A stretch of 64,000 nucleotides of DNA from Candidatus Saccharimonadota bacterium (GTDB lineage Bacteria > Patescibacteriota > Saccharimonadia > Saccharimonadales > UBA4665): NCBI GenBank assembly GCA_027459325.1, contig DAIDIO010000003.1, forward strand, positions 1-64,000. Reading direction: 5' to 3'. The position numbers were made by a program, and so were the translations under genes. Shown here piece after piece: positions 27,005 to 30,250 of this stretch (its first letter is position 1; every line of letters begins with the position of its first letter). Below the pieces are notes generated by a model, which was not told the DNA's origin, made no database searches, and saw nothing but the letters and a program-made list of their open reading frames with translations.

Positions 27005-27235
27005 ATGGAATCAAGAAAACGTAAAGTAGATCCAATAGATGCACCCGATGCAGTTGCATTAGAAGTAGCCGAGGAAGCAATTGCTCAGGCACTCGAGGCC
27101 TATCCTTGTATTAAGGGGCTTAGAGTACTGATTGATGAGCGTAATCTTAGTAACGGCTGCAAAAGTCTGGCTGAATTTTACAGCAGAATTATTCCTGCAC
27201 CCGAAATTATTCCAGCACCCAAAGTGTCTTCTTAA
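27005..27235 (+). CDS. Small protein of unknown function
   Basis: This 76-residue protein has a basic start (MESRKRK), an acidic Ala-rich helix (DAVALEVAEEAIAQALEAY), a middle section and a tail with a near repeat (IIPAPE, IIPAPK). No family is recognised. A GGAAAG site precedes the ATG. It lies behind a structured, terminator-containing leader. Its stop TAA is shared as a palindromic TTAA with the convergent tmk-thyX gene. Confidence 0.55.
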   Translation: MESRKRKVDPIDAPDAVALEVAEEAIAQALEAYPCIKGLRVLIDERNLSNGCKSLAEFYSRIIPAPEIIPAPKVSS

Positions 27236-29544
27236 TTCTTTTTTAACTGTTCTAGTTTAAATTCTGTATATCTCTCGGCGGCGAGTCTTGTGAGCTCAGG
27301 ATCTTCATCCTGATTAACAAACTTCATGGCTCCGCCAAGATTAGGATGCACTTCCGATAATTTTTCATGCATTTTATTGACAATCTTGCGGTAGCCGGGG
27401 TGACCTTGGGGACTGGTTCTCAGTTCGTGTAAATGAAAAGCTTCCCGAGCGTTGTATGTTACCTTCCAGCGCATGCGGTGTCCGAATAAACAGGCATACT
27501 GAGCTTCTAAGGTATAACCTTCACTGGTTAGCAGGCTATATAGTTCAAGTGAAACGTCGTAACAACGTTCGAATCTGTCTGTAAGATTGGCTTCTTCTAC
27601 CAATTTCGGTATATCGTATCCAAACCTCGGTGTAAGCTGTTGCCAGTTAAGATCATCTACCATTCTATGCCTCTGCAGGTCCCTGAAGCTGCCATAATCA
27701 CAAAGTACGTCCCAGCTATAGTGGGCTTTTTCTATCGCTCTACCTGGACGATGACGCCTATTTAGTCTTTCACCGATGAAAGAACTGAAGACTTTGGCTT
27801 TGTCGTCATATGACCAGCCGTTAACTATTGACTGCAGCTCCTCGAGTGGCAAATCGCTGTGTTCATATAACATGTCGGCTACTAGAGTCATTTCGTTTTT
27901 TGGCCAGTAGTCTACCAGGGTTACGTCTTCGTATGTAGCATCGGCGTGACGTTTGGGCAACTTTTCTTTCGCGATTTCTCTTACAGCCTTAGAAGTGTTA
28001 GCCCGGTAGGCTATGTAGGCTCCTCCTCTATCCGGTTTATCGGCTCGCTCTAAATACATAGGTATTACTTTGCGGGCTTCTTTAAGCAGGCTTTTGCCAA
28101 CATCCTTGGCCTCAGTAAGCTCATCGCTCATTAGATGCATTATTAGGCTTTCGACGGCTTGACCGGACGCAAATATACCGACCGTTGATTTAGTAGCTAC
28201 AGGTAATACGCTTCTTATAGCGTCACAGGCTTGAGCTCTGGTGGCAGCATTCCAGGCGCCGGTTCTGTCTTTTTCCGGAACTGATGAATTCTTCCTGATG
28301 TATTCCGTAAGTTCTCTTACCATTTCCGAGTATAGCGTGAAGATTTCGTCCATAGACTTTATATAGCTCGCCCTAATCTTACCCTTAAGGTTAGACGGAA
28401 TAAAGTACCTATAGTTGCCATTAATGTCTTTTTGATCGAAATAAATGTATCTAGTGGACTGTTCCAGATAGGCAGCCAATCGTCCCCATTCCAGTTTCTT
28501 GGTTAGCAGATTGGAAGCATTTTCTACCACCAAATGAATTCCTCCCAATTGCTGGACTGAATCGTCGCCATAAGCTGTAATTATGCGTTTAAGCAGGGCT
28601 GCGTCTTCATCAACTTTATTGGCAAACTCGTCTAAGATAGTTATGCGCATATCATCGCCGCGCCGGGATAATCTAGCCATGGCAGCGGCTATCGTAACCG
28701 GATCAAGCTTATTGGTAAAAGAATAAACGTTGCCTTCGGAATCAGTAACTGTTTCGGAAAGGTATTGTTTGCCTGCTTCGGTAGCAACAATTACCCCGTC
28801 GTCATTTAACTCAACTAACTCCGTATTAGAAGCCTCCCGGTCTGGTTTCGGCGTTTCCTTTTGCTCGAGCACTTCCCTTACCGAAATTGGCGGTTCGGTT
28901 TGGGTTGGTACAGATGTACGAACTGACAATTGGCCGGTAACTAAGCGCCATATCTGGTCGGCTATAGCTTCTTCGGTTTGAGTAGCATAAACTACCGGTA
29001 GGTTCCGTTGCCTGGCCTCCCATAGATAGCCTGCTCTAACTCTGTCTAAAAAGGCATCATCAAGGTTATCAAAACGTTCACCGCTGTAACGGCCGCTCAG
29101 TCTTTCCCGGAGAACATTAACTGGTGCATCCAGGATAATGCATAGATCTGGTTCCATCTCGCCAACGGCAAAGTTAATGATAGTGTTAATAATCTGGTAA
29201 TCTGGAACGTCGCCGCGGCCATAATACTGCAAAGCTAGCGTTGTCAGATAGTTCCGGTCAACAACACAGTTAACACCTTGCTCTAAACTTTCTTTAATAA
29301 CTTGAAGACTTTGTGATCGAGCGGCGTTATATAGCAGTACTTCAGTTTTGGTATTCATGGGATATCTAGGATCCTGGGTTAACTGCCTGATGGCTCTGGC
29401 GGTTAAATCGCTTTGGCTATCCGGCTCTCTTAGTCGTCTGACGGGTAAATTAGCCACTTGGAATCGGCGCACCAGTTCATTAACCTGGGTGCTTTTTCCG
29501 ACCCCCTCTGGCCCTTCTATAACTATGTACTTGCCTTTATTCAT
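27232..29544 (-). CDS. Fused thymidylate kinase and tandem ThyX-like (flavin-dependent thymidylate synthase) protein
   Basis: This is a 770-residue fusion. Residues about 1-205 are a dTMP kinase: Walker A EGPEGVGKST, the DR(N)Y motif at VVDRNYLTTLAL, and a LID-like SGRYSGERFD segment. A linker of about 75 residues follows. Two ThyX-like domains come next. The first (about 285-500) has a LEWGRLAAYLEQSTRY motif, where RHR is lost but EQSTRY is kept, and IRSVLPVATKS. The second (about 580-765) has DLQRHRMVDDLNW, where RHR is kept but the Ser and STRY are lost, and VTYNAREAFHLHELR. It would make dTMP from dUMP with folate and FAD, then phosphorylate it. The start at 29544 overlaps dcd by 8 bases; a frame extension to 29559 exists. 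Confidence 0.88.
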   Translation of the reverse strand: MNKGKYIVIEGPEGVGKSTQVNELVRRFQVANLPVRRLREPDSQSDLTARAIRQLTQDPRYPMNTKTEVLLYNAARSQSLQVIKESLEQGVNCVVDRNYLTTLALQYYGRGDVPDYQIINTIINFAVGEMEPDLCIILDAPVNVLRERLSGRYSGERFDNLDDAFLDRVRAGYLWEARQRNLPVVYATQTEEAIADQIWRLVTGQLSVRTSVPTQTEPPISVREVLEQKETPKPDREASNTELVELNDDGVIVATEAGKQYLSETVTDSEGNVYSFTNKLDPVTIAAAMARLSRRGDDMRITILDEFANKVDEDAALLKRIITAYGDDSVQQLGGIHLVVENASNLLTKKLEWGRLAAYLEQSTRYIYFDQKDINGNYRYFIPSNLKGKIRASYIKSMDEIFTLYSEMVRELTEYIRKNSSVPEKDRTGAWNAATRAQACDAIRSVLPVATKSTVGIFASGQAVESLIMHLMSDELTEAKDVGKSLLKEARKVIPMYLERADKPDRGGAYIAYRANTSKAVREIAKEKLPKRHADATYEDVTLVDYWPKNEMTLVADMLYEHSDLPLEELQSIVNGWSYDDKAKVFSSFIGERLNRRHRPGRAIEKAHYSWDVLCDYGSFRDLQRHRMVDDLNWQQLTPRFGYDIPKLVEEANLTDRFERCYDVSLELYSLLTSEGYTLEAQYACLFGHRMRWKVTYNAREAFHLHELRTSPQGHPGYRKIVNKMHEKLSEVHPNLGGAMKFVNQDEDPELTRLAAERYTEFKLEQLKKN

Positions 29545-30250
29545 AGGGCATGCCCTCAATCTTCTTAGGCATTTCCCTCTGGTCCTTATAGGCTTTAGGC
29601 AGCATCATGTCAGGCGACCAAGTCTTAATAATGGTATCCAAATCGTCACCTTGCTGATATTTTCCACTAAAGTTGTCGTGTCTGCCCGCACCATAGGTAC
29701 CTTCTACTTCACCAGTTTCCAGGAAAACCGCCTGAGCAATACGCTCACCAACCGGCAATAAAACAGTCTCACGCTCGTTTAAGTTATATATTTCTAAGGT
29801 TAAACGGTTAATGTAGCCTGGATCAACCCATCCAGCATCAAAACACACAGCCACACCGTTGCGGCCCCAACTTGACCGCGATTTTACCTCATAAGCGCCG
29901 GGCGGTTTAATGCCGAAAAATTCATGAGTATGGGCAAGTATGCGCTCTCTCGGCTTGAGGCTAATTACCGGATGCTCTAGTGGGATATTATTTAATGGCT
30001 TAAAGCCATTTAAAGCTGCCCATTCACCATGCGGCATTGCCTTATAGGGTCCGTCGAAGTATCTTTCTACGTCTTCGTGGTCAAACGGATTGTAGATTGT
30101 TCGTTCCTGCATTCTTTCAATTCTGTAGAAATAGAAGCCGAGCGTAACGTCTAAACTGGCGTGGGAGATATGCTTAGGATTAAAGGGATGGCAAAGAATG
30201 TGGCCTTCATCAATTGCGGCCTGGATTTGTTTGTTACTGTAAACAGCCAT
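29537..30250 (-). CDS. dcd: dCTP deaminase / dUTPase family protein
   Basis: This 237-residue protein has dCTP deaminase motifs: KPRERILAHTHEFFGI, VKSRSSWGRNGV (phosphate-binding Ser/Arg), DAGWVDPGYINRLTLEIYN (catalytic Glu), and an SGKYQQG end typical of the trimer family. It is longer than E. coli Dcd (193 residues). It could be a deaminase only or a bifunctional deaminase/dUTPase producing dUMP. It is translationally coupled to the Tmk-ThyX fusion, so this operon makes the thymidine pool from dCTP. Confidence 0.88.
   Translation of the reverse strand: MAVYSNKQIQAAIDEGHILCHPFNPKHISHASLDVTLGFYFYRIERMQERTIYNPFDHEDVERYFDGPYKAMPHGEWAALNGFKPLNNIPLEHPVISLKPRERILAHTHEFFGIKPPGAYEVKSRSSWGRNGVAVCFDAGWVDPGYINRLTLEIYNLNERETVLLPVGERIAQAVFLETGEVEGTYGAGRHDNFSGKYQQGDDLDTIIKTWSPDMMLPKAYKDQREMPKKIEGMPYE

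Follow-up and report, generated by a model that had tools for sequence, protein, structure and literature searches.

The window, the 64,000-nucleotide stretch of DNA analysed here, carries on its minus strand an open reading frame (27232-29544) for a 770-amino-acid protein with an ATG start, in which a dTMP kinase (Tmk) domain is followed by two ThyX-like domains, D1 and D2 (Table 1). The Tmk domain lies above the curated TIGR00041 equivalog cut-off (111.3 bits vs 83.25). Pfam finds two Thy1 stretches with a joint E-value of 4.5e-34 (118 bits vs a gathering cut-off of 24.8), and in the genome search the two copies also match singly, each over the cut-off (2e-17 and 3e-16). Compared as profiles with canonical ThyX, D1 is matched at 99.7% probability and D2 at 99.2%. 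The fusion protein falls short of the NCBIfam thyX equivalog cut-off, TIGR02170 (48.3 bits vs 87.9), as do three of the four other tandem proteins tried. Upstream, dcd overlaps the start of the fusion gene by 8 bases; it may be a bifunctional dCTP deaminase/dUTPase, and the two neighbouring genes could span the route from dCTP to dTDP.

Table 1. Features of the fusion gene and its neighbour, in window positions; percentages refer to 117 tandem ThyX clusters, and subunit roles are putative assignments.
Feature	Position	Strand	Details
dcd, dCTP deaminase/dUTPase family	29537..30250	-	Pfam DCD, E 1e-31; upstream of the fusion
dTMP kinase (Tmk) domain	28930..29544	-	Residues 1-205; Pfam Thymidylate_kin at residues 9-198, E 2e-28
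Tmk-D1 linker	28750..28929	-	Residues 206-265; pLDDT <50 at 206-235 (full-length model)
ThyX-like D1	28000..28749	-	Residues 266-515; Thy1 match 28060-28704; subunit B and C role
D1 Ser329 (= Mtb ThyX Ser71)	28558..28560	-	FAD phosphate, subunit B role; S in 97% of D1, 2% of D2
D1 motif WGRLAAYLEQSTRY	28447..28488	-	Residues 353-366; RHR lost; catalytic S363, R365, Y366 retained (subunit C role)
D1 Arg444 (= Mtb R172/Tm R147)	28213..28215	-	R in 98% of D1, 3% of D2; D2 usually Gln
ThyX-like D2	27235..27999	-	Residues 516-770; Thy1 match 27340-27921; subunit A role, FAD holder
D2 RHR	27664..27672	-	Residues 625-627; Q directly before
D2 stretch MVDDLNWQQLTPRFG	27619..27663	-	After RHR, at the site of the canonical S-x-R-Y; no S-x-R-Y
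D2 Arg709 (= Mtb R199/Tm R174)	27418..27420	-	dUMP N3 activation, subunit A role; R in 99% of D2 (rest an X), 15% of D1

A first-pass annotation, made from the sequence, had read this gene as a dTMP kinase followed by two ThyX-like domains, the first with WGR in place of RHR and EQSTRY retained, the second with Q-RHR retained and S-x-R-Y gone. The Pfam matches (Thymidylate_kin and the two Thy1 stretches) and a check of the coordinates bear this out, with the refinement that the third residue of RHR is still present in D1 (R355). Neither domain singly holds the full RHR-x7-S-x-R-Y signature, which D1 and D2 jointly complete, and the split extends to two arginines absent from that annotation, R709 in D2 and R444 in D1. 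Other positions of the site are less regular. The equivalent of R190 in Mycobacterium tuberculosis (Mtb) ThyX, the second subunit B residue, is Gln in the window D1, and its retention among relatives is mixed. The folate-stacking His of the Thermotoga maritima (Tm) enzyme, H53, has become Asp in the window D1 (28561-28566, residues 327-328, context AYGDDSVQQ), as it has in 61% of D1 domains sampled from the window's phylum.

Division of active-site residues between the two domains

A 2004 PNAS paper reportedly placed the ThyX site between three monomers. In the Mtb enzyme, subunit A contributes RHR and Arg199, subunit B contributes Ser71 and Arg190, and subunit C contributes Ser105, Arg107 and Tyr108 (PMC6514825); in PBCV-1 ThyX, one monomer provides Gln75 and Arg182 and its partner Ser88 and Gln89 (PMC3498832). 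These crystal structures match the premise of the first-pass annotation that different subunits contribute residues to shared sites. We placed Arg172 (Tm R147) in the C set, as it goes with D1. Because the residue groups retained by the two domains come from separate subunits in the crystal structures, D2 can be likened to subunit A and D1 to subunit C (and B).

We mapped D1 and D2 to Mtb and Tm positions by profile-profile alignment, at about 20% identity, and counted retention over 117 non-redundant tandem ThyX clusters (60% identity). In 114 of the 115 clusters that have all columns, R95, R97 and R199 (the core A set) lie in D2, and S105 and R107 (the core C set) in D1; none of the 115 shows the reverse. 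Within the A set, retention in D1 and D2, respectively, is 2 and 100% for R95, 9 and 97% for H96, and 61 and 100% for R97; within the C set it is 100 and 4% for S105, 100 and 6% for R107, and 94 and 2% for Y108, with R199, R172 and the B-set Ser71 given in Table 1. The D2 positions aligned to S-x-R-Y have high entropy, such that lost positions vary freely while retained ones barely vary. In one viral protein, L209, D1 too carries an Arg at the R95 position, with no His behind it.

The search pattern of the genome scan included the D2 RHR, and that of the viral scan was the RH of the RHR motif or E[KQ]S[TS]RY; rates for these residues are therefore conditioned in both scans, as loci were picked partly by the motifs themselves. 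The sample from the window's phylum was gathered by the Pfam profile alone, free of any pattern. Its members share a median pairwise identity of 24%. All eight residues stand at exactly the expected positions in 69 of the 77 proteins, and the others are cut or masked sequences, proteins with RGR, RNR or RQR in D2, or two distant outliers. The few relatives with RGR, RNR or RQR count against a split-site reading. Two tandem proteins with RGR for RHR in D2 (L036, L042) come from genomes without a ThyA match; either RGR is functional or thymidine is salvaged there.

That each domain supplies half of an active site, as the first-pass annotation proposed, is strongly supported: published subunit roles predict which residues are retained, 114 of 115 clusters obey, and the domain-by-domain profile alignment to ThyX that it called for places the residue sets on opposite domains. 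The homologues are not the plain degraded copies that would have spoken against the proposal, as both domains keep their own subsets. Decay or chance as the source of the split was rejected, given its conservation in these clusters and in the 69 phylum-sample proteins. It is conceivable that one domain performs the whole reaction in an altered way and the other is a structural scaffold only, since each retains part of the signature, including the third Arg of RHR in D1 in 61% of clusters. We regard this as improbable: R95 and H96 are gone from D1 and the Ser, Arg and Tyr from D2, and both domains hold their own subsets nearly without exception, in a manner that fits the published subunit roles.

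Origin, spread and kinase fusion of tandem ThyX

D1 and D2 can be traced by phylogeny to one old duplication: in a tree built without the motif columns, all D1s form one clade (98/95) and all D2s another (97/95), beside canonical ThyX. With two Thy1 domains per chain, one falling in the D1 clade and the other in the D2 clade, the window protein belongs to tandem ThyX. We rejected the idea that the split arose more than once or in the opposite direction, as no case is reversed and each domain forms a single clade; three proteins (L047, L104, L105) sit on long branches.

The genome scan returned at least 579 related stretches, of which 80 were retained, all tandem. Tandem ThyX spans, among the matches listed, some 20 named phylum-level groups, including Patescibacteria, Chloroflexota, Cyanobacteria, Myxococcota, Actinomycetota, Armatimonadota and Methylomirabilota, as well as several archaea. 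It also occurs in phages and on viral contigs, with 77 viral loci found when the diverse alignment A1 served as query; the window protein alone as query gave no viral relative in one search and one phage in another. The closest relatives outside the window's phylum, among the matches listed, are Actinomycetota, and seven proteins from Nitriliruptoria/Acidimicrobia-type members (L168, L175, L179, L181, L183, L185, L187) have the same WGR...EQSTRY as the window. Gene transfer between Actinomycetota and the window's phylum is possible on these sequences.

A search for the Tmk-ThyX-ThyX architecture, also suggested in the first-pass annotation, found it and, within the sample, confined it to the window's order. 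All 31 Tmk-fused frames among 262 tandem open reading frames come from that order, some being repeat fetches of one gene, and frames of fused length occur in at least 91 of its 247 sampled genomes. In relatives outside the order, Tmk often adjoins tandem thyX, and fusion of neighbours is therefore a plain origin. One genome with a full copy also holds a second, cut fusion copy at a contig end (L034, G149:C4).

Thymidylate supply in the genome and across the phylum

Thymidylate synthesis is essential. The genome of the window (0.82 Mb, 91.5% complete) has the fusion gene as its only ThyX and only Tmk, and a profile search of this 91.5% complete sequence gave no match for ThyA or DHFR and nothing over the cut-off for thymidine kinase. 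SHMT is present, and dcd is the sole dUTPase-family match, under the cut-off. Genome size and relatives suggest a Patescibacterium, probably a member of the Saccharimonadales. Judged by gene content, this is the make-up of a ThyX-dependent organism, with ThyA replaced and DHFR unneeded. Across 380 genomes of the phylum, a ThyA match occurs in 4 of 76 with tandem ThyX versus 203 of 304 without it (Fisher p 2.5e-24, a value that is overstated because the genomes are related and so not independent). Three of the matches in the four genomes with both (G150, G161, G328, G370) are weak. The direction of this near-exclusion is clear, and it indicates that tandem ThyX takes the place of ThyA.

A protein of ThyX fold might have another job, such as methylation of UMP or another nucleotide, or the making of a modified base. 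The UMP/dUMP methylase PolB has this fold (PMC5003785), the fusion protein is under the thyX equivalog cut-off (48 vs 88), and in D1 the folate-stacking His is replaced by Asp. Such a role is nonetheless highly improbable for a protein whose genome has neither another thymidylate synthase nor DHFR, whose class excludes ThyA over the phylum, and whose gene neighbours dcd and is fused to tmk. That this is a decaying, inactive ThyX retained through its fusion to a useful Tmk has the slightest chance of all: each domain read singly lacks part of the signature, but the genome would be left without a thymidylate synthase, and the same split is found in 114 of 115 clusters, including organisms and phages without a fused Tmk.

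Proposed assembly and relation to known enzymes

We consider it very probable that the gene encodes an active, asymmetric ThyX that works as a dimer of tandem chains with two real and two dead sites. An ancestral thyX would have duplicated within one gene, and the copies would then have lost opposite halves of the shared site. D2, in the role of subunit A, would hold FAD and contact dUMP through RHR and Arg709. D1 would act as subunit C through the dUMP loop and catalytic E361, S363, R365, Y366 and R444, and as subunit B through S329, the serine at the FAD phosphate. Because the B and C roles both fall to D1, each site would need one D2 and two D1s; in a 222 tetramer, this need for both D1s would make dimerisation of the chains obligatory. 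We infer a pseudo-tetramer, as the first-pass annotation had proposed, in which two tandem chains pair and two ancestral sites out of four stay active, which leads to the prediction of one FAD bound per tandem chain. The dcd product would supply dUTP or dUMP, and the dTMP made by tandem ThyX would be phosphorylated by the fused Tmk. The D2 position aligned to Mtb Ser71 (window context HRPGRAIEK) is often Arg (75 of 117 clusters), perhaps with a role in a dead site.

Because the single-chain model of D1-D2 is confident (pLDDT 94.5, pTM 0.92), the two domains are predicted to be rigid together. The model has the ThyX fold, and the PDB matches listed for it are all single-domain ThyX-fold enzymes (TMt 0.63-0.76); no solved tandem ThyX structure was found in the PDB, by sequence or by fold. 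A viral protein of tandem length, predicted independently, matches the D1-D2 model over its full length (TM 0.72/0.80). The linker to Tmk is predicted to be disordered in a full-length model of which it alone is informative, the Tmk half being unreliable with a shallow alignment. Disorder favours tethering over a fixed tunnel, and simple tethering of Tmk appears likelier than the direct passage of dTMP that the first-pass annotation had proposed.

A bolder reading, which we hold to be doubtful, is that tandem ThyX forms a separate, widespread and obligately asymmetric class whose dead sites have been re-tasked, for regulation, substrate entry or partner holding, and which in one order passes dTMP to a built-in kinase. 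An enzyme with one active site divided over two fused copies, retained in so many groups and in phages, offers a natural experiment in how oligomeric enzymes turn asymmetric, and its evolution reveals to which subunit each residue belongs. The absence of ThyX from humans makes it a drug target, and motif-based annotation can label many working thymidylate synthases degenerate. In a lineage of reduced genomes, the Tmk fusion would make a two-step, possibly coupled enzyme.

Our literature search, with most subscription journals outside its scope, found no account of the divided site, of how widely it occurs or of a fusion to Tmk. The division of labour within the site and the kinase fusion thus seem not to have been described before, whereas the duplication has been known since 2009, when Valas and Bourne reported a Chloroflexi ThyX with an uncharacterised domain duplication (PMC3224940). 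These proteins belong to the same tandem family, and those of Chloroflexus and Chloroploca show the same split; the paper notes the duplication without describing a split, and Tmk is absent from them, unlike in the window protein. With the classical homotetrameric ThyX/FDTS enzymes (T. maritima 1O26, M. tuberculosis 3GWC), tandem ThyX shares the fold, the active-site residues and sites that span three subunits. It differs in having two domains per chain with half of the residues each, so that two real sites are expected rather than four, and in the window protein Tmk is fused as the N-terminal domain, whereas dTMP kinase (TIGR00041) is normally a separate gene. The nearest parallel, as a duplicated enzyme with inter-subunit sites, is the monomeric herpesvirus dUTPase of EBV, in which gene duplication was reportedly accompanied by rearrangement of the motifs of an inter-subunit site along one longer chain (PMC8961515). 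Its fold is unrelated, and there a trimer gave way to a monomer with one site, whereas tandem ThyX is still expected to act as a dimer of chains.
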